Shown: in pieces, positions 11,485-44,331 of the stretch
Layout: each line of letters starts with the position of its first letter
Position numbering within the stretch: the stretch's first letter is position 1
Source: Caproiciproducens galactitolivorans
GTDB lineage: Bacteria > Bacillota > Clostridia > Oscillospirales > Acutalibacteraceae
Direction: 5' to 3'
NCBI RefSeq assembly: GCF_004768785.1
Contig: NZ_SRMQ01000007.1
Location: 1-64,000, forward strand
Length of the DNA stretch: 64,000 nt
Made by a program: the position numbers and the translations under genes
The notes under the pieces: model-generated
Seen by the model: the letters and a program-made list of their open reading frames with translations, nothing else
Database searches by the model: none
Told to the model about the DNA's origin: nothing

Positions 11485-11514
11485 TTAATTTACCTCGCTT
11501 TGGATAAAGATATT

Positions 11515-11578: not shown

Positions 11579-11591
11579 TATTTAGTTTTTA

Positions 11592-12155: not shown

Positions 12156-12223
12156 CTCATTACAATGGTCATGAACAACCAAGCCCAACACCTCATGGCA
12201 ACATGAAATTAAAAGCTGTATAT

Positions 12224-12252
12224 ATCATACAGCATTCCGACGATTAAGTCAA
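12224..12252 (-). promoter_or_regulatory. SigA-type promoter of the sigma factor gene
   Basis: Minus strand TTGACT (12252-12247), 17-bp spacer, TATGAT (12229-12224). The -10 lies within a small inverted repeat (GCTGTAT...ATACAGC, about 12214-12232) that could be an operator or an RNA hairpin at the 5' end. Confidence 0.7.
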
Positions 12253-12334
12253 TAAATATTTTGCTTTTGGAGCTAAATATTTGTTTTATTTTATAAAAAT
12301 ATATTTTAAAGCCATTATTTTTTTAACAAGTTCT

Positions 12335-13549: not shown

Positions 13550-13564
13550 CTTTCCGCCTCCTTG

Positions 13565-13715
13565 TATAATGTATTTGGGTTTTAAAGGGTACCCATAACC
13601 CTTGAAAGCATGGCCATTATGGGAGATAATAGCCGTATGGGAAAGAGTGGCGTCGTGTGCCTCCTTGGGCCGTGGGCTCGTGATTGAAAGACTGACGCCT
13701 CTCTTTCATTTTTTA
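13565..13715 (+). ncRNA. Possible structured RNA ending in a terminator
   Basis: The divergent dinB-yifB gap holds a TATAAT (13565-13570; the -35 is poor) followed by about 130 nt of strong pairing. CCCATA (from 13590) pairs with TATGGG ending at 13641; within it GGC-ATTAT pairs with ATAAT-GCC; then comes a 14-nt arm GAAAGAGTGGCGTC (13641-13654) pairing with GACGCCTCTCTTTC (13694-13707), with one T-T mismatch. A T run (13709-13714) follows, as in an intrinsic terminator. It does not match any riboswitch or housekeeping RNA I know by eye. It could be a small RNA, an attenuator for yifB, or a dinB/yifB insulator. Confidence 0.45.
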
Positions 13716-13833
13716 ATTATACACCAGAACTTATGTTCTGTAAATAAGAAAATTTTATTCTTCATTCACATAAATTTGCGATTACAATTCGAAGATAGTA
13801 TAATGTTATTATTCGATATTAGGAGGAAAGGCA

Positions 13834-15366
13834 ATGGTATCTCGTTCTTTCAGCATGGGGCTGTACGGCATGGACGCTTTTGTCGTCACGGTGGAAGCGG
13901 ATGTAAGCGTCGGATTGCCCGGTTTCGACGTAGTGGGCCTTCCGGACGCCGCGGTAAGAGAGTCGCGCGACCGGGTGCGTTCCGCCATGAAAAACTGCGG
14001 CTTCGCGTTTCCCGTACATAAAATAACGGTGAACCTTGCACCGGCAGACAAGCGCAAAGAAGGGCCGATTTACGACTTGCCGCTTTTTATAGCCCTTATG
14101 CAGGCCAGCGGGCAACTTGGAGCGGATTTAGAGGACAGCGTATTTATCGGGGAACTCTCCTTAAACGGTGAGGCCCGGCCCGTACGCGGAATCCTTCCTA
14201 TGGCAATACAGGCGCAGAAAAGCGGTTTCCACAAGCTGTATATTCCCGCGTCCAATGCCCCCGAAGGCGTTGTTGTTGAAGGAATTACTGTCTACCCCGT
14301 AAAGGATTTGCCCTCCCTGATCCGGCACCTGACCGGGCAGGAAAAGATCCTTCCCGCCGGTAAAAATACGGATACCCCTTTCGCCTCCGCCCCACTCCCG
14401 GATTTTTCGGAAGTACGCGGACAGTTTGAAGCTAAGCGCGCGCTGGAAATAGCGGCTGCGGGCGGACACAATATCCTTTTAATCGGTTCGCCGGGTGCCG
14501 GCAAGAGCATGCTTGCGAAAAGGCTGCCTTCCATCCTGCCGGATATGACTTTCGAAGAAACCATTGAAACAACAAAAATACACTCGATAGCGGGAACCAT
14601 GCCGGACGGGACTTCCTTAATACGCACCCGGCCGTTCCGCTCACCGCACCATACGGTATCCCCCGCAGGGCTTTCCGGCGGCGGAAGCATCCCGCGCCCA
14701 GGTGAGATGTCCCTTGCGCACAACGGCGTTCTGTTTTTGGACGAGCTTCCGGAATTTTCACGTAGCGCGATGGAGGTTCTTCGCCAGCCGATTGAAGACG
14801 GGAAAGTGACGATTTCCCGCGTAAACGGAACCATATCCTATCCCTGTACGGTAATGCTTGTCGCCGCGATGAACCCCTGCCCATGCGGATACTTCGGGCA
14901 TCCGACAAAGCCCTGTACCTGTACTTCCAACGCTGTCTCGCGGTATCTTTCCCGCGTCTCCGGCCCGTTGCTGGACCGGCTCGATCTGCACATCGAGGTA
15001 CCGCCCGTCGAATTTGATGAAATCAGTTCGGACGAAAAGGCCGAGAGTTCCAGCGTGATAAAAGCCCGCGTTAATGCGGCAAGGAAGATACAGAACGAAC
15101 GGTTCAAAGGTACCTCCATTGCCTGCAATGCCCGCATTACACCGGATATTCTTCATGAAATCTGCCACCTCAGCGAACTCGGCCGGGCACTTCTGAAACA
15201 GGCATTTGAAAAGCTTGGCCTTTCCGCACGGGCTTACGACCGGATACTGAAAGTATCCAGAACCATTGCAGATCTGGACCAGAGCGAAGAAATTGAGCCA
15301 AGGCATATTGCGGAAGCAATCCAGTACCGAAGCTTGGATCGGAAATACTGGATGAAGGAATTATAA
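13834..15366 (+). CDS. comM: YifB/ComM family Mg-chelatase-like AAA+ ATPase
   Basis: A 510-residue protein. The N-terminal ~170 residues form the Lon-like (ChlI) domain; the AAA+ module follows with Walker [16 protein letters not shown], Walker [12 protein letters not shown], and the C-terminal Mg-chelatase lid ([11 protein letters not shown]-type region). A zinc-type [16 protein letters not shown] insert is in place. In Proteobacteria the ComM homologue is a helicase for branch migration in transformation; in Clostridia the role is less studied. The start at 13834 has the RBS TAGGAGGAAAGGCA. Confidence 0.92.
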
Positions 15367-15370
15367 GAAT

Positions 15371-15397
15371 CCCCCTGCGGGTTTGAACCGCAGGGGG
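15371..15397. terminator. Shared terminator between comM and the MCP gene
   Basis: A perfect 10-bp stem CCCCCTGCGG (15371-15380) with CCGCAGGGGG (15388-15397) lies between two convergent genes. U tracts are weak on both sides. Confidence 0.65.
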
Positions 15398-15412
15398 GTG
15401 GTAGAAGGGATC

Positions 15413-17467
15413 TTAATATTTATCGGACGGGCCCTCCCCGAAATTGCCTGATGATTCCGGTTCAGAAAATTCCACAGCAGGATTCTGCTGGATTTCGCCG
15501 GATGCATCTATTAGCTTCAGCGTAGACAAAATATTCTTCATCTGCTGCGCCTGCCCGTTTAACTCCTCACTAGCCGCGGCGCTTTCCTCCGCAGTAGCAG
15601 AGTTCGTTTGTACAACCGCAGAAATCTGATCGACTCCCAATGTAATCTGATTGATGGAAGATGCCTGATCCTGAGAGGACTTGGAAATTTCCCGGATCAG
15701 ATCCGTTGTATTCTTCACTTTTTCAATAATCGCATGGAGTGATTCTTCGGTTTCACTCGCAATCCTCGAGCCGTTTTCAACGGCTTTGATGGAATTTTGA
15801 ATCAGCAAAGTGGTATCTTTCGCCGCTTCTGCGCTCTTGCTTGCAAGGTTGCGGACTTCATCGGCAACAACCGCAAAGCCCTTGCCAGCCGAACCGGCCC
15901 TTGCTGCTTCAACCGCAGCGTTCAGCGCAAGAATGTTGGTCTGGAAGGCGATATCCTCAATGGTTTTGATAATCTTCTCAATTTGCTGAGAGGCCTCGTT
16001 AATCTCCGCCATTGCGGCAACCAGCTGCTTCATATGTTCATTTCCGCGTTCCACTTCCGCAGAAGCTTCGAGCGAATACTGGTTCGCCTGTCGTGAATGA
16101 TCTGCGGTATTATTGACTTCTTGGGCAATTTCGGTAATAGACGCAGAAAGCTCCTGAATCGAGCTGGCTTGTTCCGTAGCCCCCTGCGACAAAGCCTGCG
16201 CGGCGCTCGAAACCTGATCGGAACCGCTGGCTACCTGATCAGCAGACTGGTTAATTTCCGTAAACATGCGGTTCAGATTTACAGAGATTGCATTCAGCGA
16301 ATCTCTAATGGTTACAAAGTCGCCTTTATAATCCTCCTCGGGTCGAATCGTACAGTCGCCGCATGAAAGGCTGTCCAGCACAAGTGCAATTTCGCCAATA
16401 TATCTCGTGAGCGTTTCAATTGTATTTGAAAAAGTATCCGCCAAAACGCCGATTTCATTGCGGGTGCGGATAACGGGGATCTCGGTATGCAGGTCGCCCT
16501 CTGCAAGCAGCTCAATCCTATGTACAAGGTTTTCAATAGGCTTGGTAATCGGATTGGCGATCCGAACAGCAAAAATACAGGAAATAAGGATGAACACAAT
16601 CAACAGAATAACCGTAATGAAAAAGGATATGTAATAAGATCTCATCATCTCGCTGTAATCTGCGCTGATACCCAACGACCAACCGTCTGTTTCGTCGATC
16701 GGACAGTAGGCAACCAACTTTCGGACACCGTCAATTGTAACCGTTTGGCTTCCTGTTTTACACGCAATCATATCCTTGACAAGGGAAGCTGCACTATCAT
16801 AGGAATGATTTTCTTGCGCCTTTTCGATATAGTTGACAAAGTTGTTGACATTGTTCCTATCTTTATGCGCTATGATTTTCCCACTTTTGTCGACGATAAA
16901 TCCATATCCCTTTTTCCCGACTGAGACGTTGTCAATCATTTTCGAAAAGGTATCGCTTGACAAGCAGGCGTAGACAATCCCGTTATAGTTTGACCCGTTG
17001 TTAATTTTGGCCGAAACAAACATCACAACACTAGAATCCGTTTTCCGTGTAACGGTGCTGGAAATGTATGTCTGGCCTGCGATGGCCTTTTGAAAATAGT
17101 CGCGGTCGCTGATATCCGTTCCATTTGTTGTTTTTCCATTTGCGTCGGCTAAATTAACATCTACAAAGCCATATTTTTCGCTAAGTTTTGCCAGTAAGCT
17201 TTTTTGCGCGGCCGGATTCGTTGCATCTGTTATCGTAGTTTCACTAGCAATGGCTTCCGCTTTGGCTTTAAATACCTCGATTGCATTTTTTACAGCTTCA
17301 TTATAGGAATTTGCATTCGACTGTACCATGGAAACCATGTTGTCCTGACAGTTTTTATAGATCATAAAACCGTTTGCTATACTGCATACAAGGCTAACCG
17401 ATATGGTAAGACCTACCATTCCCATAAGCAATGCTCTCTTTAAACTTCTTCTTTTTCTTTTGTCCAT
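15413..17467 (-). CDS. Methyl-accepting chemotaxis protein with dCache sensor
   Basis: A 684-residue transmembrane chemoreceptor. TM1 is at about residues 11-33; a periplasmic-side double-Cache domain follows ([21 protein letters not shown] and [16 protein letters not shown] are the typical strands), then TM2 at about 285-308, a HAMP domain, and a long signalling domain with the hairpin tip [20 protein letters not shown]. dCache domains commonly bind amino acids or other small molecules; the ligand is not predictable. A SigD-like promoter at 17553-17579 drives it separately from cheB. Confidence 0.92.
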
Positions 17468-30360: not shown

Positions 30361-30408
30361 AGAAAAGCCGTACCGGTATCCCTCAGGGAATACCGGTACG
30401 GCTTTTCT
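30361..30408 (+). terminator. Strong terminator of the fliD operon
   Basis: Left arm 30361-30383 and right arm 30386-30408 pair almost perfectly (AGAAAAGCCGTACCGGTAT and its complement, one bulged base). The A- and T-rich ends allow bidirectional use, so it also ends the minus-strand nucleoside operon. Confidence 0.9.
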
Positions 30409-30484: not shown

Positions 30485-31201
30485 TCAGCATTCTGCTTTA
30501 AACTCACGGATTTGGGACATGAGCGCCGGCTTATCGTTATGCAGTTTCAGAATGGTGCTGCCTACAAACACTCCGTCGCCGCCCGCCGCCTTTACCATTG
30601 CCGCATCTTTCGGATTATGTACTCCTACGCCGCAGTAAATCGGGTTTTTTAAACCGCGTTCCCGCAGGTACTGTATGCATGATTCCAAAGTCGGGTGTTC
30701 CTCGGTTGCCTGCCCCGGAGCCGGCACCGCCTGCATATAGGTAAAGCCATTGGACTTCAGCGCATATTCCACTTCCTGCTCCGGTAAATGGAACTGTACG
30801 TAACAACTGACACGAAGGCCTTCTTTAATAAACTGATTCTTGATTACTTCATCTTTTAAACCGACAAGAATAATATCACGGTAATCATTGTCAAGACAGA
30901 ACCGGATAAATTTCTCCACACCGATTTCTTCAACGGTGTTTTCATACACCATGAGGATAAAGTTCGTATTGGGGAGCAACTTCTTAACCTTAATCATGCC
31001 CTCCATGTATTTCTCGAAATCATCGCAGTTCTTTAATGCCTCTGCCATACGGTTAGAAATATACTCGCTTTCCAGAAAAGGGTTGTGAGAGGGAAAGTCA
31101 ATTTCGATCATATCACAGCCAGCCTCCACGTAGGTCCTGGCCATCTCGATGCTGTCCTCAATCGTTGGATATCCATTTGATAGATAGCAGATTAAATTCA
31201 T
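30485..31201 (-). CDS. TrpA-like (beta/alpha)8 protein of the nucleoside operon
   Basis: A 238-residue TIM-barrel protein related to tryptophan synthase alpha subunit (GCDMIEIDFPSHNPFLES near the N-terminus; phosphate-site glycines IYCGVGVHNPKDAAMV and GDGVFVGSTIL at the C-terminus). Glu in MIEIDFP aligns with catalytic Glu49 of TrpA, and Glu replaces the second catalytic acid Asp60. No trpB or other trp gene is present, so it is unlikely to make indole. TrpA performs a retro-aldol cleavage; by analogy this could split a sugar-phosphate-like substrate. Last gene of the 11-gene operon. Confidence 0.75.
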   Translation of the reverse strand: MNLICYLSNGYPTIEDSIEMARTYVEAGCDMIEIDFPSHNPFLESEYISNRMAEALKNCDDFEKYMEGMIKVKKLLPNTNFILMVYENTVEEIGVEKFIRFCLDNDYRDIILVGLKDEVIKNQFIKEGLRVSCYVQFHLPEQEVEYALKSNGFTYMQAVPAPGQATEEHPTLESCIQYLRERGLKNPIYCGVGVHNPKDAAMVKAAGGDGVFVGSTILKLHNDKPALMSQIREFKAEC

Positions 31202-31231
31202 AGCATTTTCATTCCTTCTGTATAATTCTTA

Positions 31232-32377
31232 TTATCCATGATATGCTTTCTTAAACAGCTCCACGAACTGCGGGATGGTCGGGATGATCGGATTTGTCTT
31301 GGTGCAGCCGTCCGCTTTGGCGGTTTCGGCCATTTTTTCTAATTGAGAGGTATACGCAGCTTCATCCTTCACAACTTCTTTCACACAGGCGGGAATGCCG
31401 ATTTTCTTATTCAAGTTCCGGACAATCTCCGCAAGATCCGTACCGTCCAAGTCGGCAGCCAAGCGGTCATACACGTCTTTTGCTTCCGGATTTCCGCTGT
31501 TGAAGTCAATGATATACGGCAGGATGATCGCGTCGCCAAGGCCGTGGGAAACATGGAAGAATCCGCCTAGTGTGTGTGCCATGGAGTGGACGATGCCAAG
31601 GGATACATTCGTGAAGGCGAGGCCCGCCGTCATGGAAGCATTCAGCATGGTTTCACGCGCCGCCATGTCTTGGCCGTCTTCATATGCTTTTGGCAGAGTA
31701 TTGACAATATCGATTGCCGCCGCGCGTGCAAGGATGTTGGAAAGGTAATTCGCCCGGTTGGAAACCAGCGCTTCAATTGCATGGGTCAATGCGTCCATAC
31801 CGGTTTCCGCCGTAATATGAGGTGGCATGGTTGCGGTAACCTCCGGATCGCAGATCGCGATATCCGGCATCATTTCCATGTTTCCCAAACCGTGCTTCAT
31901 ACCTGTTTCATCGTCGGAAATAACAACCGAACGGGAAACCTCGCTTGCAGTACCGCTAGTGGACGGGATGCACATAAAGCGGGCTTTCCGGCGGAGCTTC
32001 GGGAACGGATTCGCGGTAAGAACTTCCTCTAACGTAGTCAGCTCCGGGTGTTCATAGTACACCCACATGGTTTTCGCCGCGTCCATTGCCGAACCGCCGC
32101 CCAAAGCAACGATCATATCCGGCTGGAATTCCTTCATTTGCTCGGCGCCCCTCTTTACGGTTGAAAAGCAAGGATCCGGTTCCACACCTTGAAATACGGT
32201 TGTCTGCACACCGTTTTCATGAAAATATCGTTCGACCTTTGCCAGAATTCCGCTGCGCTCCATGCTCTTGCCGCCCACAACGATGAACGCTTTTTTACAG
32301 GGAACGGATTTAATATATGCAAGGCAGTTCGCTCCGAACATCAGCTCGCTGCCCGCTAATTTCATTGGTCTCATCAT
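31232..32377 (-). CDS. Iron-containing alcohol dehydrogenase
   Basis: A 381-residue group III (Fe-dependent) alcohol dehydrogenase. The NAD-binding motif is VALGGGSAMDAAKTMW; metal-binding histidines appear in MDALTHAIEALVS and HSMAHTLGGFFHVSHGLGDA. Enzymes of this family usually reduce aldehydes to alcohols or lactaldehyde/propanediol-type substrates with NAD(P)H. Inside a nucleoside catabolism operon it probably disposes of an aldehyde formed during sugar breakdown. The RBS AAAAGGAG precedes ATG 32377. Confidence 0.88.
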   Translation of the reverse strand: MMRPMKLAGSELMFGANCLAYIKSVPCKKAFIVVGGKSMERSGILAKVERYFHENGVQTTVFQGVEPDPCFSTVKRGAEQMKEFQPDMIVALGGGSAMDAAKTMWVYYEHPELTTLEEVLTANPFPKLRRKARFMCIPSTSGTASEVSRSVVISDDETGMKHGLGNMEMMPDIAICDPEVTATMPPHITAETGMDALTHAIEALVSNRANYLSNILARAAAIDIVNTLPKAYEDGQDMAARETMLNASMTAGLAFTNVSLGIVHSMAHTLGGFFHVSHGLGDAIILPYIIDFNSGNPEAKDVYDRLAADLDGTDLAEIVRNLNKKIGIPACVKEVVKDEAAYTSQLEKMAETAKADGCTKTNPIIPTIPQFVELFKKAYHG

Positions 32378-32394
32378 GGTTTTAACTGCTCCTT

Positions 32395-33189
32395 TTATTT
32401 GTTAAGCCCATTAAGCACTTCGCGTACAAGGTCGTAAGAAATCGGATTGGTCAGCACACCGTCTTTCTTCAGACTGCTTCCGATCACCGCGCCGTCCGCA
32501 ATCTCCAGTTGTTCGCGGATATTGTGCGCATTGACGCCGCTGCCCGCGATAACCGGAAGTTTAACAACCTTCTTTACGCGTTGGATCATTTCAAGCGGAG
32601 TTTCCACACCGATTGCGGAGCCGGTCACGATAATGGCCTCCGCGCCACAGCTCGCCGCTGCTTTTGCAGACGCTTCAATCGTCACCTGCGGAAGCACCAT
32701 ATTCGTGTGCTTTACCTGAACGTCGGCAAGAATCATAATATTTTCCGCATCCAGATTCTTTCTGGTCTGCATACAGAGCCTTGCGCAGGGGTTAATAATC
32801 CCACCGTAAAATTCAACGGTATCTACAAATACCGGAATACGCACAAAGTCACAGCCGTTGATTTTGGCGATGGAAAGAGACGCAACACAGTCGTTAAAGG
32901 CCGCGTCAACGCCAACCGGAATTTTTACCGCTTTTTTCACTAAAGCCGTCGCGGCGGAAAGCGCGGCCACCTGCGGAGTATCCAGCAGAGCGGCAAACGG
33001 GTCGTCCCCCATATTTTCAACAATAATCGCGTCAACGCCTGCCTTTTCAAGCGTGACGGCATCCTGAACCGCCTGGTCTAAGATTTTATCGCAGTCCCCT
33101 GCAAACCCGGCGGTTCCGGGCAATGCAAGGCAATGAACCATACCGATGACAAATCTTTTTCTACATGCAATAATTTCTCTGATGTCCAT
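32395..33189 (-). CDS. BtpA/SgcQ family protein
   Basis: A 264-residue TIM-barrel protein of the BtpA/SgcQ family: VIGMVHCLALPGTAG at the N-terminus, DAIIVENMGDDPF, and the phosphate-binding-like end LPVIAGSGVNAHNI ... DGAVIGSSLKKDG. BtpA was first linked to photosystem I in cyanobacteria, while SgcQ is part of an uncharacterised E. coli sugar operon; the reaction is not established. Here it sits with a phosphorylase, kinase and ABC importer, which favours a role in pentose-phosphate processing. ATG 33189 has AAGGAAGAG. Confidence 0.85.
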   Translation of the reverse strand: MDIREIIACRKRFVIGMVHCLALPGTAGFAGDCDKILDQAVQDAVTLEKAGVDAIIVENMGDDPFAALLDTPQVAALSAATALVKKAVKIPVGVDAAFNDCVASLSIAKINGCDFVRIPVFVDTVEFYGGIINPCARLCMQTRKNLDAENIMILADVQVKHTNMVLPQVTIEASAKAAASCGAEAIIVTGSAIGVETPLEMIQRVKKVVKLPVIAGSGVNAHNIREQLEIADGAVIGSSLKKDGVLTNPISYDLVREVLNGLNK

Positions 33190-33230
33190 AACAATCTCTT
33201 CCTTTCTTAATAAAAACAGAAACCGGATAT

Positions 33231-33986
33231 TCACTCCACATTTTGCGTATGATATCGGTATAATCCCTCAAGAACAACGCGGCACAACAAGTCTTCCGCA
33301 TCAATGCGATCCTGGCCGGCCAGTACTTCCTTCAAATTCTCAAGCACGGTAGCCATGGTAACAATGCAGGTTTTCACACCCATCAGCCGCCCGATCGTCA
33401 GCATACACGAGGATTCCATATCGATTCCGGTTACATGAAGCTTTTTTAATTCTTCAAAGGTTTTGAGCATGTTAATTCCGCATTCCTTGGAAAATTTGGA
33501 ATCGTGCATCTTGCTGTAAAAGCCGTCCATGGTGCAGTTGACGCCGTTGAGGTAACGCTTTCCAAAAAAAGTCACCGTCTGGTTCATGATATTGACCAGT
33601 TCGATATCGGCAACCGCGGGATAGCTTTCTTCCACATAGGTTTTGCTGGTGCTTTCGCGGCGCATGGCGGCAATCGGAATAATAAAATGCCCCAGCATAT
33701 CATCCTGCAAAGCCATTACCGTACCCATACGTACAGCCACTTTCATGCCGGATTCATACATTTCTTCCATGGCTATCGCTGCGGAGGGAGCGCCGATTCC
33801 CGTAGAAGTTACCGTAACCGGCACCCCCTTGTAGGAACCGGTGTAGGTGTTGAATTCCCGTTTAAAGGCAACATGCTGCGGCTTTTCAAGATATTTTTTC
33901 AGAACTTCCACGCGGAACGGGTCACCCGAAAACAGAACATAAGGGGCAACCGTTGACGTATCCGCTCCTAAATATAATGTTGACAT
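33231..33986 (-). CDS. Nucleoside phosphorylase (uridine phosphorylase-like)
   Basis: A 251-residue NP-I family phosphorylase. Motifs: VLFSGDPFRVEVLKKYL (phosphate site), STGIGAPSAAIAMEE, RMGTVMAL, and GIDMESSCML containing the ribose-binding Met-Glu pair. It would cleave an imported nucleoside with phosphate into free base plus (deoxy)ribose-1-phosphate. Base preference is uncertain. The uridine-phosphorylase GTTG motif is changed to GTVM, so a non-standard base is possible. ATG 33986 has AAGGAG; the extended N-terminus to 34010 is not needed. Confidence 0.88.
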   Translation of the reverse strand: MSTLYLGADTSTVAPYVLFSGDPFRVEVLKKYLEKPQHVAFKREFNTYTGSYKGVPVTVTSTGIGAPSAAIAMEEMYESGMKVAVRMGTVMALQDDMLGHFIIPIAAMRRESTSKTYVEESYPAVADIELVNIMNQTVTFFGKRYLNGVNCTMDGFYSKMHDSKFSKECGINMLKTFEELKKLHVTGIDMESSCMLTIGRLMGVKTCIVTMATVLENLKEVLAGQDRIDAEDLLCRVVLEGLYRYHTQNVE

Positions 33987-33997
33987 TTTTTGTCTCC

Positions 33998-34960
33998 TTA
34001 CATTACACATTTTTTAAAGTTTTCAAAGCGTTTTGTGATCTCTTCCACAGTCGGCGCATTCGTACAGCAGCCTTCTTTTTCTATGATAAAGGAAGAGAGG
34101 GTGCTGCCCATCCGGCAGCAATCCGCCATCGGCAGCCCTTGCAGGTAGCCGTACAGGAATCCCGCCATATAACCGTCCCCGGAGCCGGTGGTGTCCACCA
34201 CCTCCGTGCAGCCACAAATCGGAATGCATTGGCTGTCGATCGTACCGTCCGCCTGCCGCTGATAATAAGTACTTCCCTGTTTTCCATATGTTGTCACAAT
34301 AATTTCCATCTCGCCAAGGGCAAACAAATCTGTGATCGATTTGAGGTTAAGAAGCTTCTCAATCGTTTCGCGTTCCGATTCATTGGTGAAAATAATCTTG
34401 CTGTGCAGCAGCAGTTCCTTGAGGAACGGCTCCGGGAAGGCGTCAAAGTCCGCTTTCATACCGAAGACAATCGGCACATTATGTGCGCGGCACTTTCGGT
34501 AAAACTCCTCGTTATCCTTACGTGCCGCGACGGTAATAACGCCCAGGCTCGTATTTTCAAATATGTCATCGCTCAGTTCGCAGGAATATTTCTCATCCAT
34601 GGCGCCCGTATAGTAAAGTGTGATATGCTGCCCTTTATTATCTTGGATCAAGTAACAAACGGACGTTGTTTCCTCTTCGATAACGGAGGTGGCGTCCAGC
34701 GGAACGCCGCCGTCCTCCATGAATTTCTTAAACCCGATTTCCTCATAATCCCCGCCCACGCGAAGAATCGGCATCGCTTTCAATCCAAGCCTGCACAGCG
34801 CGTATGCAATGTTAACGGAGCAGCCGCCGTAATAAATTCTGGAATTCGTCTTATTCTCGATGAGAGAGGTAAAACCAACGGCCGCCGGCGTTTTGATCTT
34901 CAGCATGTGATCCATGCTCACATAGCCGCTCACAATTACATCATATTTCTTCATTACCAT
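33998..34960 (-). CDS. PfkB family carbohydrate/nucleoside kinase
   Basis: A 320-residue PfkB kinase. The first signature is YYGGCSVNIAYALCRLGLKAM; the second, with the catalytic Asp and anion hole, is DTTGSGDGYMAGFLYG. A TTSVCYLIQDNKGQH lid and YTGAMDEKYS recall adenosine-kinase-like members. It would phosphorylate a nucleoside or a sugar released from one. It overlaps the cysteine hydrolase gene by 7 nt and sits just before the phosphorylase gene, so it is translated with them. Confidence 0.88.
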   Translation of the reverse strand: MVMKKYDVIVSGYVSMDHMLKIKTPAAVGFTSLIENKTNSRIYYGGCSVNIAYALCRLGLKAMPILRVGGDYEEIGFKKFMEDGGVPLDATSVIEEETTSVCYLIQDNKGQHITLYYTGAMDEKYSCELSDDIFENTSLGVITVAARKDNEEFYRKCRAHNVPIVFGMKADFDAFPEPFLKELLLHSKIIFTNESERETIEKLLNLKSITDLFALGEMEIIVTTYGKQGSTYYQRQADGTIDSQCIPICGCTEVVDTTGSGDGYMAGFLYGYLQGLPMADCCRMGSTLSSFIIEKEGCCTNAPTVEEITKRFENFKKCVM

Positions 34961-35517
34961 TCTCCGTTATCCAATTTCTCAAAAAATGTTTTCATGTCCA
35001 CAACCGTTCCCAGATATTTCTGGATATCGTTGAGGTGTACTTCATTTACTGTTTCTGAATTTGTCGCCACACATTCGCGGATAACAATCGGGTTGTAATT
35101 CAGATAGAACGCATCCGTTACGGTGGCACGAATGCAGCAGTTGGTTTTTGTTCCGACGATTACAGTATTTTTAATATGATTTTCACGGAGTACAAGGTCA
35201 AGATCCGTACCGAAGAAGCCACTATAGCGGCGCTTTCGGATTACATAATCCTCCGGGTTCACTTTCAGCATTGGGTCGATTTCGATGCCGCTGGTTCCTT
35301 CCACACAGTTCGGGCGCATGGCCGCCGCCTTTTCGTCCGGCTTGCCCGCGCGGTTGCAGTGCTGGAGGAAAATAACCAGCTTTCCTTTTTCCCGGCATTT
35401 TTCCAAAACCTGCACAATCCTGGGCAGAATCTCGCGATTCTGCGGATAAAACACCAGACCATCCGGATCCGTAAAGTCCTTTACCATATCCACAATAATA
35501 AGAGCTGTCTCATTCAT
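34954..35517 (-). CDS. Isochorismatase-family cysteine hydrolase
   Basis: A 187-residue protein with the family triad: Asp in ALIIVDMVKDF, Lys in YVIRKRRYSGFFGTDL, Cys in VGTKTNCCIRATVTDA. The DxH metal site of nicotinamidases is absent, so it is more like the amidohydrolase branch (RutB, N-carbamoyl-type hydrolases). Within this operon it may open or deaminate a released base or remove a carbamoyl group, but the substrate is unknown. It overlaps the permease gene upstream by 8 nt. Confidence 0.85.
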   Translation of the reverse strand: MNETALIIVDMVKDFTDPDGLVFYPQNREILPRIVQVLEKCREKGKLVIFLQHCNRAGKPDEKAAAMRPNCVEGTSGIEIDPMLKVNPEDYVIRKRRYSGFFGTDLDLVLRENHIKNTVIVGTKTNCCIRATVTDAFYLNYNPIVIRECVATNSETVNEVHLNDIQKYLGTVVDMKTFFEKLDNGEW

Positions 35518-36424
35518 TCTTAAAACCTCTTACCTTGTTGTTCTTATGTTTCAAAACAGATACCACCGTAAGCACACACACCATAATGACATACGGGATA
35601 ACGTCAAACAGCCCCGCCGCAGGACCGGCATAAATACTCAGATTAACGGAGAGGGCGCGCGCCAAGCCGAAGACAACGGCATATATGGCAGATAAAGTCG
35701 GGGACCCTTGGCCGCAGTAGATTGCGGCAATTGCGATAAATCCGCGCCCGGCGGTCATATCATTGGTGAAAAGGCCCAGGCGTTCGGTAGAAAGATTTGC
35801 ACCCGCAAGCCCGCAGCACACAGCGCCGATTAAAATCGCTGCATATTTATAAAAATCGGTTTTTAGGCCAATGCTCTTGGCCGCGTCTTCATTTTCACCG
35901 ACCACACGGACATAGATGCCGAACCGCGTTTTGTACATCAAAACCCACATAAAAAAGATACCAAGGAAGCTGATGTACGTGATCAGCGGATGGTCGCTTA
36001 AAATGCTCCCCACAAGCGGAATGTTTTCGACTACTGGGATATGGAGCTTCAGATCAGCCACATTCATAAAGCTCAGCGTGATATTGGAGGTATTCATCCG
36101 CACCAGAACAAATTTTGCAATGGCCGAGGCAAGCAGGTTGATTGCCAGGCCGATAATAATCACGTTTCCCTTGAAAGTAACCCCCATAAGGGAGAAAACC
36201 ACTCCAAAGGCCAGCGCCGCCAGCACGGCGAGCAACACGCCGAGCGCGATATTCTGCGTCATAAACGCGGTAAGCGTTGAAACAAACGCGCCGATGAGCA
36301 TCATGCCCTCGAGCGCTATATTGAGCACATTTGCCTTATAGGCAAAGATACCGCCGATTACGCACAAAATAATAGGGGCACTATGATAAATGGTATCATA
36401 TAAAATATTTCCTATGATGTCCAT
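35510..36424 (-). CDS. Nucleoside-type ABC transporter permease (NupQ/YufQ-like)
   Basis: About 304 residues with eight or more hydrophobic segments, of the branched-chain/simple-sugar permease superfamily: NIALEGMMLIGAF near the N-terminus and GRGFIAIAAIYCGQGSPT in the C-terminal half are typical of permeases paired with BMP-type lipoproteins. ATG 36424 has GGAGG upstream. It partners with the permease, ATPase and lipoprotein encoded just upstream on the same strand. Confidence 0.9.
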   Translation of the reverse strand: MDIIGNILYDTIYHSAPIILCVIGGIFAYKANVLNIALEGMMLIGAFVSTLTAFMTQNIALGVLLAVLAALAFGVVFSLMGVTFKGNVIIIGLAINLLASAIAKFVLVRMNTSNITLSFMNVADLKLHIPVVENIPLVGSILSDHPLITYISFLGIFFMWVLMYKTRFGIYVRVVGENEDAAKSIGLKTDFYKYAAILIGAVCCGLAGANLSTERLGLFTNDMTAGRGFIAIAAIYCGQGSPTLSAIYAVVFGLARALSVNLSIYAGPAAGLFDVIPYVIMVCVLTVVSVLKHKNNKVRGFKNE

Positions 36425-36425
36425 T

Positions 36426-37514
36426 TTACGCCTCCTCACTTATGGCCGTTTCGGGTTTGCCGGTCTTTTTTCTGAAAAGCTTTTCCCGAATATTCGTATG
36501 CTCATCCACAAATTTCACCGCAAGGAAAAGAATAATCAACCCCTGAATAACCGAAACAATCTCTTTCGGGACGGTCGAGTAAAGATTGATGTGGTCTGCA
36601 CCGGTCTTCAAAGCGGAATAGAAAATTGCCGCAACCAAAATGCCGACGGGGGAATGGCCGCCCAGCAGGGCAATCAGCATACCGTCCCAGCCGAGTCCCG
36701 GATTACCGGAAAAGCTCAGGGTGTATTTGAACTGCTCGCTCATCATGTAGCCCGCACCGGCCAAGCCGGAAAGCGCACCACTAATGATCATCATGATCAT
36801 AATCTTTTTGTGCACTTTCATGCCCGTTGCTTCCGCGAATTCCGGATTTTTCCCAATGGCGGTGATTTCGTAACCCAGCTTTGATTTGTTCATGACAACA
36901 TACATAACGATGAATACAAGAATCGCGATAAAAAAGAACATAGTAAGCTTGGAGTTCCCAAAGCGGGGAAACATTGCATTCTCCTTGATAATCGGCGTGC
37001 AAACGTATCCGGAGCTGTAGTCACGGAACACGCCGGTCGCAAGGAATTCCAGCACCTTGATCATCGCATAGTTGAGCATCAGGGTAACCACCATTTCATT
37101 TACATGGCAGTATGCTTTGAGGATTGCCGGAACTAGTGCAAACACAACGCCGCAGATAACGCCCACCGCGAGGCAGAGAAGCTGAGCCGCCGCCGGATTC
37201 AGCGAGGCCGGCAGCGAGGTACCGACGATACCGCTGAAAAATGCTCCAAGCAGCAGTTGACCTTCTACGCCCATGTTAAAAATATTCGCCTTAAATGTAA
37301 CAGCAATCGCAAGGCCGGTCAGAATAAGCGGCGAAGCATAATGCAGCGTGTTCAGAAAACCTTTTACGGTAAACAGAGATTTACCGAGCAGGATTCCATA
37401 TGTATCCAAGGGATTTTCGCCAATCATCAAAATTACGATTCCGCCGATCACAAACGCCAACAAAACAGGCAGAACCGAATTTACAAGGCGTTTCCCGAAA
37501 TCCATTCTTTTCAT
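36426..37514 (-). CDS. Nucleoside-type ABC transporter permease (NupP/YufP-like)
   Basis: 362 residues with a hydrophobic N-terminus and repeated transmembrane segments. Landmarks: NIFNMGVEGQLLLGAF and FSGNPGLGWDGMLIALLGGHSPVGILVAAIFYSAL. A second, longer permease forming a heterodimer with the adjacent one is the rule in BMP-dependent nucleoside importers. The stop codon lies 1 bp from the start of the next permease gene. Confidence 0.9.
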   Translation of the reverse strand: MKRMDFGKRLVNSVLPVLLAFVIGGIVILMIGENPLDTYGILLGKSLFTVKGFLNTLHYASPLILTGLAIAVTFKANIFNMGVEGQLLLGAFFSGIVGTSLPASLNPAAAQLLCLAVGVICGVVFALVPAILKAYCHVNEMVVTLMLNYAMIKVLEFLATGVFRDYSSGYVCTPIIKENAMFPRFGNSKLTMFFFIAILVFIVMYVVMNKSKLGYEITAIGKNPEFAEATGMKVHKKIMIMMIISGALSGLAGAGYMMSEQFKYTLSFSGNPGLGWDGMLIALLGGHSPVGILVAAIFYSALKTGADHINLYSTVPKEIVSVIQGLIILFLAVKFVDEHTNIREKLFRKKTGKPETAISEEA

Positions 37515-39055
37515 ATAAATGCCCCTTTTGCCTTGTTATTTTGAATTCCCGCCATCAGCAGGCCTATTTCGGATCTGCTGACCTCTTTCGGAGAAAGCTC
37601 ACCGATAATCCTGCCTTTGTACATAACGATGATCCGGTCGGACAGGCTCATGACCTCCGACAGTTCACTAGAAATCAACAGGACCGCATTGCCTTTATTG
37701 CGGAAATCCAAAATCTGTTTATGGATAAATTCAATAGAGCCGATATCGACGCCGCGCGTTGGCTGGCAGGCTATTAAAAGCTTTGGATTGCTTTCAAACT
37801 CTCTCGCAATAATAATTTTCTGCGCGTTTCCGCCGGAAAGCTGGCCAACATTGCCGTTGATATCGCCCACACGAATATCAAAATCCTTTACAAAACGATC
37901 TCTTTTGCAGCTTATGTTCTTTCTGTCCAGCAGACCGAATTTACAGACATCCGGGACGCTGTGATAACCGGCGATACAGTTATCCGCAATACTCATTGTG
38001 CCGCAAAGGCCCTGTGCATACCGGTCCTCCGGGATAATCCCCAAACCGTTTTGCCGCAGTTCGTCCGGCCACTTATCTGTAACATCCTTGCCATATATGG
38101 AAACCTTACCTTTGGTCGTTTTCATAAGGCCTGTCAGCACTTTCACCAGTTCCGACTGGCCATTTCCTTCCACACCGGCCACACCGAGGATTTCGCCCTT
38201 ATGCACACAGAAGGAAATATTCTGAAGAACTTCCTTCCCATAATCGTTAATCGTGCAGACATCCTCTACCTGGTAGGCAATTTCCTCCGATGCTTTGTTT
38301 TCCGCCGTATTCTGTACGGTCAGAACAACTTCCCTGCCCACCATCATTTGCGCCAGTTCTTCTTCCGAAGTATCCTTGGTCAACACATTTCCTACAACCT
38401 TGCCCTGCTTGATAACCGTAACACTATCACTCAATTCCATCACTTCACGAAGCTTATGGGTGATGACAATGATTGTCTTGCCTTGTGCGCGCAGTTCCTT
38501 CAGGTTTACAAAAAGCTCGTCCACTTCCTGCGGGGTCAATACTGCGGTCGGTTCGTCGAGGATCAGGATATCGACGTTACGGTACAGCATCTTGAGGATT
38601 TCCACCCGTTGCCTTCCGCCAACGGAGATATCCTCGATTTTATCAGTAGGATCCAGTTCAAACTTATATTTTTCAATCAGCTTTTTGACTTCGTCAATTT
38701 CCTTTTTCCGATCAATAATTGGTGATTTTGAAGATTTTTTCAATTCCGCGCCAAGTAGGATGTTTTCATAAACGGTAAGGCTGGGCACCAGCTTAAAATG
38801 CTGGTGCACCATACCCAACCCGTGTGCAATGGCATCCATCGGCCCATTGATCACAGTCTCTTTTTCATGGAGCAATATTTTTCCGCTTGTGGGACGTAGC
38901 AATCCATAAAGCATATTCATCAAAGTGGATTTCCCCGCGCCATTTTCACCTACTATGCATTTAATCTCCTGTTTTTCTACTGAAATGTTAATCCTGTCAT
39001 TTGCAGTAAAATCACCGAATTTTTTGGTTAGATCGATCGTCTTAATGATGCTCAT
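37511..39055 (-). CDS. Nucleoside-type ABC transporter ATPase, two NBDs (NupO/YufO-like)
   Basis: A 514-residue protein with two ATP-binding domains in tandem. Domain 1 has Walker A GENGAGKSTLMNMLYGLLRP, the signature ISVGGRQRVEILKMLYR and Walker B ILILDEPTAVLTPQEV. Domain 2 has the degenerate Walker A GVEGNGQSELVKVLTGL, signature GQLSGGNAQKIIIAREF and LIACQPTRGVDIGSIEF, the usual asymmetry of sugar/nucleoside ABC ATPases. It powers import with the two permeases; overlaps the next permease gene by 4 nt. Confidence 0.93.
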   Translation of the reverse strand: MSIIKTIDLTKKFGDFTANDRINISVEKQEIKCIVGENGAGKSTLMNMLYGLLRPTSGKILLHEKETVINGPMDAIAHGLGMVHQHFKLVPSLTVYENILLGAELKKSSKSPIIDRKKEIDEVKKLIEKYKFELDPTDKIEDISVGGRQRVEILKMLYRNVDILILDEPTAVLTPQEVDELFVNLKELRAQGKTIIVITHKLREVMELSDSVTVIKQGKVVGNVLTKDTSEEELAQMMVGREVVLTVQNTAENKASEEIAYQVEDVCTINDYGKEVLQNISFCVHKGEILGVAGVEGNGQSELVKVLTGLMKTTKGKVSIYGKDVTDKWPDELRQNGLGIIPEDRYAQGLCGTMSIADNCIAGYHSVPDVCKFGLLDRKNISCKRDRFVKDFDIRVGDINGNVGQLSGGNAQKIIIAREFESNPKLLIACQPTRGVDIGSIEFIHKQILDFRNKGNAVLLISSELSEVMSLSDRIIVMYKGRIIGELSPKEVSRSEIGLLMAGIQNNKAKGAFI

Positions 39056-39084
39056 TTCAATCTACGCCCCTTGCATCGTTTTCG

Positions 39085-40287
39085 TTATTTTATATTTACA
39101 TTCGGGCAGGCGGACGCGTCAAACTTCTCGCCGGCCTGTGCGTTGACTACTTTGATCTCCGAACCGATTTTGCTTTCGATCTGGGCAATCTTTGCTTTTA
39201 TTTCGTCCCACTTGGCTTTTGCCGCGTCGGTGGAAGCGATATGCTTACTAATTTCGGACAAATCCGTAATGCCGGTGGCACCCGAAGACAGGGAATAAGA
39301 CTGTAAGTTTTCCATAGAAGAAAGTTTGTTTTCAACCAACGCGGTGCAGATTGTCACAACCGGAACGTTGGTATTTTTCAGAACGCTTGTAAGGACGTAA
39401 CCGGGCTGCTGATTGTCTTTGTTCGCATCGACCTGAATCGCCAGTCTGCCTACTTCCTTTGCTTTGGAGGTGATCCCTTCGCCGACGCCGCCTGCCACAC
39501 CGTAAACGATGTTGGCGCCCTTATCATAGTACGTGCCCGCTACTGTGCTACCGAGCGCGGAATCCGTAAAGCCCGCATCGTATTTTGCATAATAGTCATA
39601 CTTTACACCGAGCTCTTTGGCCATATAGTTGATACCCTGGATATAGCCATAGGAGAATACGGTAATACCGTTGGAGTTTGTGCCGCCGATAAAGCCGATT
39701 GCACGACCGCCGCTGGCCGGATCCTTAAACTTGTATCCGTCCGCGAAGAGTGTTTTGGCATTCTCATTGACCAGTACGCTTAAGCTGCCTGCAAGGAAAG
39801 AAGCTTCATGAACGTCGAACATAACGGAAATAACATTTTTGTATTTTACATCACCGCTCGAAGTCACATTCGGATTATCGTTGAATACAACAAATGTGGT
39901 GTCCGGATAGCTTTCCGCGATCGGTTTCGCGCCGCCCACGCCTTTGATTAAAGCGTCGAAATCATATTCCAGGCTAAAGATTACATTGTAACCGTCGTCC
40001 GCCAGCGTTTCCAAGGCTGCCGGAACACCGTTTGTGGGTTCCACTACCTTGTACTGAATGCCGAACTTCTCTGCTGCTTCCTTTGCGCCGTTTACAGCGG
40101 CCTGATTGTAGCCGTTATCGTTCTGCCCTGCGGCATCGCAGACAATTGCGATTTTCTTGTCGCTTTTTGCGGGTGTGGAAGCCACGCCGCTTGAAACAGA
40201 CGTATTGCTGCCGCAGCCGGTCAGAGCTGACAGGCCCATCATTGCCGCCATTGCAAAACATAAGACCTTTTTCAATGTTCTTTTCAT
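39085..40287 (-). CDS. BMP-family substrate-binding lipoprotein
   Basis: A 400-residue lipoprotein. The signal peptide ends in the lipobox LTGC (Cys25), then a Ser/Thr-rich linker. The mature protein is a periplasmic-binding-type fold of the BMP/PnrA family: VCDAAGQNDNGYNQAAVNGA, NVIFSLEYDFDALI, GFIGGTNSNGITVFSYGYIQG and QVDANKDNQQPGYVLTSVLK. BMP proteins mostly bind nucleosides. It is the first structural gene after the GntR regulator and fits the transporter genes downstream. Confidence 0.92.
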   Translation of the reverse strand: MKRTLKKVLCFAMAAMMGLSALTGCGSNTSVSSGVASTPAKSDKKIAIVCDAAGQNDNGYNQAAVNGAKEAAEKFGIQYKVVEPTNGVPAALETLADDGYNVIFSLEYDFDALIKGVGGAKPIAESYPDTTFVVFNDNPNVTSSGDVKYKNVISVMFDVHEASFLAGSLSVLVNENAKTLFADGYKFKDPASGGRAIGFIGGTNSNGITVFSYGYIQGINYMAKELGVKYDYYAKYDAGFTDSALGSTVAGTYYDKGANIVYGVAGGVGEGITSKAKEVGRLAIQVDANKDNQQPGYVLTSVLKNTNVPVVTICTALVENKLSSMENLQSYSLSSGATGITDLSEISKHIASTDAAKAKWDEIKAKIAQIESKIGSEIKVVNAQAGEKFDASACPNVNIK

Positions 40288-40339
40288 TGCGATTCTCCTT
40301 TTATTTAAATAAAAAAATAGGGGGACATATGAAAGGGGC

Positions 40340-41068
40340 TCACTTTACCTGATTGATATAGAATTTAAATTTGTCGCTGCGATAGCAGCATTTAAAATTT
40401 TCAATCGGGATTTCTTTTCCATTTGAAATGCCATACGTAATACAGCCAAACAGAAGAATGGGTTTTCCGGGTTCCACATCCAGATATTCGGCAATCTTGT
40501 CTTTCGCCAGAATGGCTTCGACGGACCGCTTCGCTTTCGTGATTTTAATATCATACTTTTCTTCCAGTACTTTATACAGGGATTCTTTTGAAAAATCGTA
40601 CTTCTCAATGCCGGGGAACAGCTTATAGGGAAGATAGGTTACGGTATGGTTGATGGGTTCGCTGTCCGCATAGTAAACCCTTTCCAGCCGGAATACCTTT
40701 TCGTTTTTTCCAAGTTCCAAATTGCGGCATCTTTTGTTATCCGCTTCAAGAACAGAGGCCGAAATGACTTTCCTGCTGGGTGTCATCCCCAGATTGATAA
40801 CATCCTGCGTACAGCTTGTAATCGAAATTAAGTCCTGGCTATACGCATCCGACTTCACAAACGTTCCTTTGCCCTGCACCTTGTACAGGTATCCTTCATT
40901 CACCAGCTCATCGATTGCTTTGCGAACGGTGATGCGGCTTACATCGTACTGCTGGATTAATTCCCGTTCGCTTGGAATCATCTCGTTTGCTTTAAACTCT
41001 TCTTGATCAATCTTTTCAATCAATTTTTGCTTCAAAATATAATATTTTGGAAGCATAATTTGGTCCAT
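40340..41068 (-). CDS. GntR family regulator (HutC/UTRA subfamily)
   Basis: A 242-residue protein. The N-terminal winged helix (MIPSERELIQQYDVSRITVRKAIDELVNEGYL) is followed by a UTRA ligand-binding domain (NEKVFRLERVYYADSEPINHTVTYLP). HutC-type regulators usually sense a phosphorylated sugar or nucleoside intermediate. It is the first gene of the 11-gene operon, and a 15-bp palindrome downstream of its promoter is the likely autoregulatory operator. Confidence 0.92.
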   Translation of the reverse strand: MDQIMLPKYYILKQKLIEKIDQEEFKANEMIPSERELIQQYDVSRITVRKAIDELVNEGYLYKVQGKGTFVKSDAYSQDLISITSCTQDVINLGMTPSRKVISASVLEADNKRCRNLELGKNEKVFRLERVYYADSEPINHTVTYLPYKLFPGIEKYDFSKESLYKVLEEKYDIKITKAKRSVEAILAKDKIAEYLDVEPGKPILLFGCITYGISNGKEIPIENFKCCYRSDKFKFYINQVK

Positions 41069-41085
41069 AAGCGCTCCTCCTAATC

Positions 41086-41100
41086 ATGACATCATGTCAT
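41086..41100. promoter_or_regulatory. Putative GntR operator
   Basis: A perfect palindrome, ATGACAT-C-ATGTCAT, 18 bp upstream of the GntR start and downstream of the -10. GntR/HutC regulators typically bind such 7-bp inverted arms; repressor bound here would block the whole nucleoside operon. Confidence 0.65.
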
Positions 41101-41119
41101 CATAACCAGTTACGAGTTC

Positions 41120-41147
41120 ATTATACTCAGATTTCAATTGTAGTCAA
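41120..41147 (-). promoter_or_regulatory. SigA-type promoter of the GntR-nucleoside operon
   Basis: Minus strand TTGACT (41147-41142), 16-bp spacer, TATAAT (41125-41120). All genes from 41068 down to 30485 are on this strand with gaps of at most about 50 bp and no internal terminator seen. Confidence 0.75.
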
Positions 41148-43845: not shown

Positions 43846-44331
43846 CTACTTAATCAGCTGGCTATCGTTCACACGGTCAATAATTTTCTGTTTGAAATTA
43901 ATGACCTTATGTTCATATTCCTGATTCATCAGCGGAGAACGGATCATAAAATCGGCAGTTGCCTTATTATTTGCAATAGGAATATCATAAACCTGAGCAA
44001 TCCTTAACAACGCCTTTACATCCGGATCATGCGGCTGTGCCTCCAATGGGTCGGAAAAAAATATGATGAAATTGATTACACCCTCTACAATCTTGGCCCC
44101 GATTTGCTGGTCGCCACCCAAAGGGCCGCTGTTATAACCCTTTACGGGAAGTCCGGTTTTTTCCGCAATCAGCCTTGCCGTTGTTCCGGTTCCGCATAAG
44201 AAATGGTTTCTGAGGATATCCTGATTTTCCGCACACCATTCGATTAGTTCGCGCTTTTTCCCATCATGGGCAATTAACGCGATGTTTTTTTGTTTTCCAA
44301 TGGTAAATGTAATAAATCCGTTATCCATCAT
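43846..44331 (-). CDS. mgsA: Methylglyoxal synthase
   Basis: A 161-residue protein. Motifs: IALIAHDGKKRELIEWC (phosphate site), FLCGTGTTARLI, and YNSGPLGGDQQIGAKI with catalytic Asp74; His101 lies in AQPHDPDVKALLR. It converts dihydroxyacetone phosphate to methylglyoxal and phosphate, a bypass used under phosphate limitation or carbon excess. Co-transcribed with the HPr-like gene, which may regulate it. Confidence 0.93.
   Translation of the reverse strand: MMDNGFITFTIGKQKNIALIAHDGKKRELIEWCAENQDILRNHFLCGTGTTARLIAEKTGLPVKGYNSGPLGGDQQIGAKIVEGVINFIIFFSDPLEAQPHDPDVKALLRIAQVYDIPIANNKATADFMIRSPLMNQEYEHKVINFKQKIIDRVNDSQLIK

Follow-up and report, generated by a model that had tools for sequence, protein, structure and literature searches.

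An eleven-gene operon conserved in Clostridia joins a stand-alone TrpA-like protein to a BtpA/SgcQ protein and may split the sugar of a nucleoside

Two described pathways come closest to the operon reported here. In haloarchaea, a pathway consisting of a phosphorylase, a PfkB-family ribose-1-phosphate (R1P) kinase, an aldolase and a reductase has been proven, and its authors suggest that the R1P kinase may be more widespread through the Archaea and Bacteria (Sato et al. 2022, PMC9700705, from the portions available to us). In the dihydroxyacetone phosphate (DHAP) shunt, a phosphorylase substitutes for the nucleosidase and kinase and is not added to a kinase, according to the accessible part of the report (PMC10986504). 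The operon described here lies in a 64,000-nt stretch of DNA (the window) from Caproiciproducens galactitolivorans, whose genome is 2.58 Mb and 99.99% complete. A sequence-only reading of this locus had likened it to the 5-deoxyribose shunt with different enzyme families. The difference in families stands, but with its phosphorylase and PfkB kinase the haloarchaeal pentose bisphosphate route, as far as those portions describe it, is the nearer parallel.

The eleven genes are all on the minus strand (30485–41068), behind a single strong promoter and an operator, with intergenic gaps of −14 to +52 bases as called and, by eye, Shine-Dalgarno-like runs before most of the genes. Pfam and NCBIfam profile scans found the stated families for all eleven: a GntR regulator, a BMP lipoprotein, an ATPase, two permeases, a cysteine hydrolase, a PfkB kinase, an NP-I nucleoside phosphorylase, a BtpA/SgcQ protein, an iron-containing alcohol dehydrogenase (Fe-ADH) and a TrpA-like protein. 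Together with the promoter and palindrome scans, these results bear out the earlier description of one tightly spaced minus-strand operon with one promoter and a palindromic operator.

To annotate neighbourhoods in other genomes, we compared them by BLAST with the eleven operon proteins of the window. There are 17 complete operons in Clostridia, with identical genes in identical order (the window, L012, L017, L018, L019, L044, L045, L048 and L108–L116). Four more (L016, L043, L046 and L047) reach contig ends and are colinear up to that point. The regulator is found in all 18 operons in which the 5’ end is present, the window included, and the whole operon was found in each of the nine neighbourhoods fetched for strong matches in the class search. 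This order is kept at considerable divergence – the lowest identities to the window are 34% for the BMP lipoprotein, 40% for the TrpA-like protein, 43% for PfkB and permease A, 45% for permease B, 49% for GntR, 50% for BtpA, 54% for the phosphorylase and Fe-ADH, 55% for the hydrolase and 57% for the ATPase. Flanking frames, compared by eye, vary among divergent loci and are shared by closely related ones (L108/L109 and L110/L113, for example). Judged by gene content and order, the eleven genes behave as one unit. The prediction that BtpA and the TrpA-like protein are constant parts of one pathway fared well in the search for the gene set in other genomes: 17 of 17 complete operons keep both, and random loss of either was not seen.

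The operon has a narrow distribution. In draws from the whole phylum, both the TrpA-like protein (1 of 398 genomes at 1e-20) and the phosphorylase (1 of 348 genomes at 1e-44) matched only the window’s own genome, so the operon appears to be rare outside some clostridial families. In the class draw, 31 of 381 genomes matched the TrpA-like protein, ten at 319.8–455.3 bits and the other 21 at no more than 96.5 bits. In the family draw, 12 of 398 genomes matched the phosphorylase; ten of these matches scored 301–561 bits, and all ten stand inside the operon (three reach contig ends). There were three weaker phosphorylase places, at 140–147 bits: the two that were read (L049 and L050) have no such operon, and the third is in G638. 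Six of 60 relatives matched the TrpA-like protein, one of them (G048, 58 bits) resembling ordinary TrpA. Among named records, the closest TrpA-like proteins are those of a Clostridiales metagenome-assembled genome (96%), C. galactitolivorans YR-4 (92%) and ‘Amazonia massiliensis’ MS4 (79%). Viral contigs held no relative of BtpA or the TrpA-like protein (two short patterns each), and on plasmids the TrpA-like protein matched 12 records at 22–27%, those annotated being trpA.

Every TrpA-like copy seen stands in the operon, save one decayed remnant. In Anaerotruncus colihominis DSM 17241 (L020, 9571–10718), only a shortened Fe-ADH frame and a stop-interrupted TrpA-like copy are present, by eye the decayed last two genes of the operon, 3’ of a restriction-modification-like gene.

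On sequence grounds, the TrpA-like protein is not a tryptophan synthase. In two scans it scored 86.2 and 88.7 bits against the TIGR00262 trpA model, below the cut-off of 102.35, and it is the only trpA match in the genome. The best trpB match scored 132.8 bits against a cut-off of 392.45. A search of the genome for indole-glycerol-phosphate synthase (IGPS) found no match, while the same search was positive in 14 of 14 control genomes. A role in tryptophan biosynthesis was rejected because there is neither an IGPS nor a trpA or trpB over cut-off. Four other genomes (G1042, G1003, G1163 and G942) have the operon TrpA-like protein plus a second match of 85–92 bits, the level of ordinary TrpA. The 132.8-bit trpB match in the host genome is a TrpB-like protein on contig 14 (L073), possibly a TrpB2-type enzyme, in a genome with no IGPS or trpA over cut-off.

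The residues of 19 operon TrpA-like copies were compared by alignment with those of ten TrpA frames that the same search had returned. All 19 copies have the first catalytic acid, E33; the second, at position 44, is Glu in 17 copies and Asp in the other two (eight Glu and two Asp among the ordinary TrpA). Phosphate-site residues G193, G214 and S215 are also kept in all 19. Four positions are fixed in the TrpA-like set – Y6, G114, Y134 and Q157 – where ordinary TrpA mostly has F, D, L and V; we take columns of this type to line the indole pocket in E. coli TrpA. The predicted model (pLDDT 87.0 from five sequences, with low confidence at residues 44–46) best matched the TrpA structure 2ekc, with a TM of 0.84. 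In a tree with nine ordinary TrpA, the 19 copies form one clade (FastTree support 0.77, midpoint root, small sample). Since the lyase acids and the phosphate site are kept, the sugar-phosphate cleavage proposed in the sequence-only reading is a fair expectation, but the choice of the bond to be cut would be a further supposition.

The BtpA protein of the operon is a full member of its family (TIGR00259), which is common: 189 plasmid records, for example, hold a relative. We know of no established reaction for BtpA/SgcQ proteins. The genomic context of BtpA was compared at 16 other loci (L010, L011, L051–L063 and L065), with plasmid loci read from the record annotation in seven of the 189 records and L051 annotated by BLAST only. 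A sugar kinase, PfkB or FGGY, lies within a few genes of BtpA in 11 of the 16 (L010, L011, L051, L053, L057, L059–L063 and L065); no kinase was recognised beside it in L052, L054, L055, L056 and L058, where some frames were unscanned and some loci met contig ends. In L057 the order is PfkB-SIS-BtpA-DeoC, with BtpA directly before DeoC, and in L054 and L051 DeoC and a transaldolase-family gene are 5–6 kb away. These kinase neighbours fit a BtpA that would act on the product of the kinase.

Some of the other BtpA loci differ in content from the operon. The order in L053 is PfkB-SIS-BtpA-BMP-ATPase-permeases-amidohydrolase (7469–16736), which by its genes is probably another nucleoside-type pathway. 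The host genome has two more BtpA genes, 28% and 25% identical to that of the operon, at L010 (contig 15, 6772–10517) and L011 (contig 4, 8716–11063), one with SIS and PfkB neighbours and the other adjoining an FGGY kinase. In L060, L061 and L062, on alphaproteobacterial plasmids, BtpA has TenA and a sugar kinase as neighbours, and some of these loci add phosphotriesterase, glutamine-amidotransferase-like or ureide genes; these sets suggest another pathway, for a nitrogen-bearing glycoside.

The importer is a complete BMP-type set, with a Bmp lipoprotein, a double ATPase and two BPD_transp_2 permeases, and the remaining enzymes retain their characteristic residues. The hydrolase keeps Asp10, Lys95 and Cys128 in 19 of 19 copies. 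Its nearest solved relatives are 3hb7 and an N-carbamoylsarcosine-amidase-related protein, and its best NCBIfam name is RutB, at 81.3 bits against a cut-off of 378; likeness to this pyrimidine-ring-degradation amidase would fit a uracil-like base but proves nothing. Nicotinamidase was not adopted as a function because inspection by eye did not show what we take to be its metal-binding motif and the protein scored below every cut-off. The PfkB kinase keeps its GxGD motif in 20 of 20 and misses all NCBIfam cut-offs, scoring 70.1 bits against NF053626 (cut-off 330). Its nearest solved relative, at 136 bits, is MJ0406, which is filed as a sugar kinase and is presumably a nucleoside kinase. In Fe-ADH the Asp and His positions that we assume to form the metal site are conserved in all 19 copies or in all but one; against the NF053832 glycolaldehyde reductase model the protein scored 28.7 bits (cut-off 550).

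The phosphorylase keeps its phosphate-site and Met-Glu motifs in 20 of 20 copies and missed every equivalog cut-off among the matches listed. At the apparent position of the His that we take to bind the 5’-OH in E. coli PNP, all 20 have Tyr. At the positions of the Gln and Arg that presumably hold uracil in E. coli UP, in an alignment with a one-residue gap there, the 20 copies have Q (15), K (3), R (1) or one other residue at the first and R (9), H (6) or K (5) at the second, with Lys and His in the window. A uracil-like base is possible from these residues.

These observations rest on sequence – gene content, co-conserved order, intact catalytic residues and the lack of an IGPS – and the reading we prefer is a GntR-controlled catabolic operon for one nucleoside whose sugar is split after phosphorolysis. 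It seems to us somewhat short of an even chance, as we infer every substrate, enzyme step and the order of steps. The BMP-type ABC importer would take in the nucleoside, and the NP-I phosphorylase would release its base and leave pentose-1-phosphate; the cysteine hydrolase would process either the base or one of its amides. PfkB, a constant part of the operon that had been given no role in the sequence-only reading, would phosphorylate pentose-1-phosphate to the 1,5-bisphosphate, which BtpA would isomerise (or epimerise) to a ketose phosphate. The TrpA-like protein, with no TrpB partner, would then cut the ketose phosphate in a retro-aldol step, yielding a triose phosphate together with glycolaldehyde (or its phosphate) as the two-carbon aldehyde, which Fe-ADH would reduce as a redox sink. 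A clostridial pentose bisphosphate pathway without Rubisco, with the phosphorylase, PfkB as R1P kinase, BtpA as aldose-ketose bisphosphate isomerase, a ketose-phosphate aldolase derived from TrpA and an alcohol dehydrogenase electron sink, is a more specific and doubtful form of this scheme.

Several points weigh against the split of a nucleoside sugar after phosphorolysis. None of the operon enzymes scores above a curated threshold for any specific activity; BtpA passes one at family level only. In NCBIfam the lipoprotein, ATPase and permeases come closest to putative vitamin-B6 transporter components without reaching any of the cut-offs, so even the nucleoside cargo is a presumption. There is no phosphatase among the eleven genes; if a bisphosphate were cleaved directly, the product would be phosphoglycolaldehyde, in our judgement an unusual Fe-ADH substrate. 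BtpA is also found beside SIS proteins (L010, L053 and L057) and therefore need not be an isomerase itself. Nothing was concluded on its function from structure: the model (pLDDT 73.9) matched phosphate-binding TIM barrels in Foldseek, many of them tied, including hexulose-phosphate synthase, dihydropteroate synthase, HisF, NanE, IGPS and others. The genome encodes deoB (501 bits) and deoC (248 bits) on another contig, which would make a second route redundant for ordinary nucleosides and makes it too strong to say, as the sequence-only reading did, that the two TIM barrels ‘must supply’ the sugar chemistry; their presence suggests an unusual nucleoside or a parallel route. Finally, with MJ0406 as its nearest relative, PfkB may act before the phosphorylase.

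A comparison with rhizobial plasmids gives the proposed split both some support and its weakest point. On Agrobacterium vitis pRvVAR031a, the record annotation gives the order GntR, BMP, ATPase, permease, permease, isochorismatase-type hydrolase, PfkB, phosphorylase, SIS-domain protein, aldehyde dehydrogenase, and Pfam confirms the last two genes (SIS_2 and Aldedh). Rhizobium lusitanum p_1 has the same order from BMP to aldehyde dehydrogenase, a regulator being called in A. vitis only. The eight core proteins of A. vitis are 23–43% identical to those of the window (hydrolase 31%, PfkB 23%, phosphorylase 34%); its kinase scored 74.5 bits against NF053626, and its phosphorylase also has Tyr at the 5’-OH position, with Glu and Phe at the Gln/Arg positions. 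Six of 98 plasmid records with a phosphorylase match were read, and these two hold the core. The eleven-gene set is kept in Clostridia, but the two rhizobial cousins exchange its last three genes as a block, and by this comparison the upstream core is common across phyla and the SIS and aldehyde dehydrogenase pair can replace the BtpA, Fe-ADH and TrpA-like block. A natural common reading, with which the exchange agrees, is that each end block would supply an isomerase and a means of removing the aldehyde, by reduction in the clostridial operon and by oxidation in the rhizobial one. No aldolase was found in the rhizobial plasmid stretches, however, and the SIS family is also found in clusters with amino-sugar-type genes, so the rhizobial SIS protein need not be a pentose-phosphate isomerase. 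Of 28 plasmid records with this SIS protein, three were read beyond the core pair, none of them with the core. The UdP neighbourhood L068, with frames unscanned, has a BMP-type importer and no hydrolase or PfkB match.

The likeness of PfkB to MJ0406, and after it to ribokinase-family and adenosine kinases, leaves room for a reversed order in which the kinase would convert the nucleoside to a 5’-nucleotide, NP-I would cleave the nucleotide, and BtpA, the TrpA-like protein and Fe-ADH would process the sugar phosphate. PsuK/PsuG and QueK/QueL use such kinase-first logic with other folds, and the conserved Tyr in the phosphorylases, A. vitis included, may mean that the 5’ end is read differently. 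But ribose-5-phosphate freed in this way would need none of the last three genes, and the rhizobial kinase leans to an R1P kinase; we consider the reversed order unlikely.

The lack of a phosphatase would be no difficulty for a shunt without a bisphosphate, in which BtpA, like MtnA, would convert pentose-1-phosphate to ketose-1-phosphate, the TrpA-like protein would release DHAP and free glycolaldehyde, Fe-ADH would reduce the aldehyde and PfkB would act on another intermediate. The DHAP shunt, as the accessible part of its report describes it, has the same logic with MtnA and Ald2 (PMC10986504). This scheme has a small chance of being right, as it gives no clear role to PfkB, which all the operons encode, and no MtnA- or Ald2-type gene is among the eleven.

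An ordinary nucleoside salvage operon, in which the TrpA-like and BtpA proteins have a side function or have lost catalysis, would be in keeping with deoB and deoC in the genome and with activities that for these two proteins are predicted only, but it is improbable given the constant gene content and catalytic residues that are intact down to 40% identity. Cleavage by the TrpA-like protein of a base-linked glycerol phosphate, from an unusual C-nucleoside or modified base, recalls the C-C cleavage of an aromatic glycerol phosphate (indole-glycerol phosphate) by TrpA, a hydrolase that suggests processing of the base and the BtpA loci with TenA and a ureide-pathway gene, yet it is highly improbable, as the phosphorylase of the same operon would already free the base and the fixed Tyr and Gln of the pocket replace Phe and Val.

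The overall logic of the sequence-only reading is partly supported by these comparisons. The gene content of the operon and its constancy are firmly established; for the chemistry we offer a hypothesis about two enzymes with predicted activities. The operon gives BtpA/SgcQ, found in many bacteria and archaea, a tight and testable context, and the retention of a TrpA relative, without TrpB, among nucleoside-type genes would be a case of a tryptophan enzyme recruited into catabolism. If the steps are right, clostridia too would have a bisphosphate route for nucleoside sugars, as archaea do, built from other enzymes. To our knowledge, it would then be the first time that a TrpA relative is given a catabolic role and a BtpA/SgcQ enzyme a reaction.

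The features of the operon are listed in Table 1. The phosphorylase gene more likely starts at 33986, and for permease B the start at 36424 is more likely than the alternative because homologues are 303–307 aa long. The promoter scan of the region gave 32 sites against 17.9 expected, so that single weaker sites are meaningless; elements resembling the operon promoter are also found by eye upstream in relatives. The palindrome ATGACATGATGTCAT (41086–41100) is self-complementary at 14 of 15 positions. Overlapping it, AACTGGTTATGATGACAT (41094–41111) has no other match in the window at up to three mismatches, and 8 of 100 shuffles gave one. In a search of 74 loci (L013/L017 and L015/L018 being the same places), AACTGGTYATGAYRACAT was exact in five other operons, 5’ of GntR, and altered in L012 and L046; it was absent from the inspected regions upstream of GntR in L048 and L108–L116. 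The hairpin at 30361–30408 closes the operon and was not listed by a simple scan. No Rfam element reached its gathering score between 30000 and 42000.

Table 1. Predicted genes and regulatory elements of the operon in the window
Feature	Coordinates	Strand	Evidence
Promoter TTGACT-16-TATAAT	41120–41147	−	11/12 matches; best promoter-like site of the region
Putative operator, AACTGGTTATGATGACAT overlapping palindrome ATGACATGATGTCAT	41086–41111	−	Self-complementarity, shuffles, recurrence in relatives
GntR/HutC-type (UTRA) regulator, gene 1	40340–41068	−	Pfam UTRA 121 bits, GntR 66 bits
BMP/PnrA-like substrate-binding lipoprotein	39085–40287	−	Pfam Bmp 107.6 bits; solved relatives are BMP-type lipoproteins
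ABC importer ATPase, two ABC domains	37511–39055	−	Pfam ABC_tran, two stretches
ABC permease A	36426–37514	−	Pfam BPD_transp_2 147.4 bits
ABC permease B	35510–36424	−	Pfam BPD_transp_2 113.8 bits; alternative start GTG at 36439
Isochorismatase-fold cysteine hydrolase	34954–35517	−	Pfam 143.1 bits
PfkB-family kinase, candidate sugar-1-phosphate (or nucleoside) kinase	33998–34960	−	Pfam PfkB 136.8 bits
NP-I nucleoside phosphorylase (PNP_UDP_1; uridine-phosphorylase-like)	33231–33986	−	TIGR01718 159.9 bits, cut-off 280.3
BtpA/SgcQ-family TIM barrel, C-terminal phosphate-binding-type motifs	32395–33189	−	TIGR00259 210.6 bits, cut-off 153.4
Iron-containing alcohol dehydrogenase (Fe-ADH)	31232–32377	−	Pfam Fe-ADH and ADH_Fe_C
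Stand-alone TrpA-like TIM barrel, proposed sugar-phosphate retro-aldolase	30485–31201	−	Pfam Trp_syntA 88.9 bits, cut-off 27
Terminator-like hairpin between convergent genes	30361–30408		About −40 kcal/mol on either strand (folding)

A few genes near the operons may also be of interest. In L116, a dihydroxyacetone kinase set of DhaK, DhaL and DhaM (2065–4145, each over its NCBIfam cut-off) shares the strand of the operon and is some 600 bases upstream of it; although seen at one operon only, it is a possible hint at a triose product. In the window, a gene at 43846–44331, 2.8 kb past the 5’ end of the operon, looks by eye like a methylglyoxal synthase, and if so would encode a DHAP-consuming enzyme. 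A second BMP-type ABC importer, with permeases about 30% identical, is found near the 5’ end of the operon, upstream of GntR, in L108, L109 and L111.

Among the open-licence papers listed, which leave absence unproven, no title or abstract start describes this operon or a catabolic TrpA relative. The operon can be compared with several systems already described. The BtpA protein belongs to BtpA/SgcQ as a full member, here in a defined metabolic setting. The TrpA-like protein shares its fold, two catalytic acids and phosphate site with tryptophan synthase alpha and with stand-alone indole-glycerol-phosphate lyases such as BX1; unlike these, it forms a separate clade, has other pocket residues, and is encoded in a nucleoside-type operon in a genome without IGPS or trpA/trpB over cut-off. 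The rhizobial plasmid operon has the same order from GntR (A. vitis only) through the phosphorylase, but ends in a SIS-domain protein and an aldehyde dehydrogenase rather than BtpA, Fe-ADH and the TrpA-like protein.

In the DHAP shunt for 5-deoxyribose disposal (MtnK-MtnA-Ald2), as the accessible part of the report has it, the nucleoside is also split and an aldolase cuts a ketose phosphate to DHAP and an aldehyde (PMC10986504). The operon differs in its enzyme families, in having both a phosphorylase and PfkB, and in its dedicated importer; neither an MtnA-type isomerase nor an Ald2-type class II aldolase is among the eleven genes, the rest of the genome not having been searched. The haloarchaeal pentose bisphosphate pathway, in the portions available to us, has in common with the operon an operon-linked enzyme of the uridine phosphorylase family and a PfkB kinase (PMC9700705), and, if the proposed steps are right, a final aldol split that yields a triose phosphate and reduction of the two-carbon aldehyde formed with it. 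Its ribose-1,5-bisphosphate (R15P) isomerase, HAD-type ribulose-1,5-bisphosphate (RuBP) phosphatase and FucA-type ribulose-1-phosphate (Ru1P) aldolase families are absent from the eleven genes, which were the part of the genome searched. In their place the operon has BtpA, the TrpA-like protein and Fe-ADH; it further encodes its own dedicated BMP importer, regulator and cysteine hydrolase, and its host also has deoB and deoC. By this comparison, the operon is not a member of the haloarchaeal pathway, but it may work like it.

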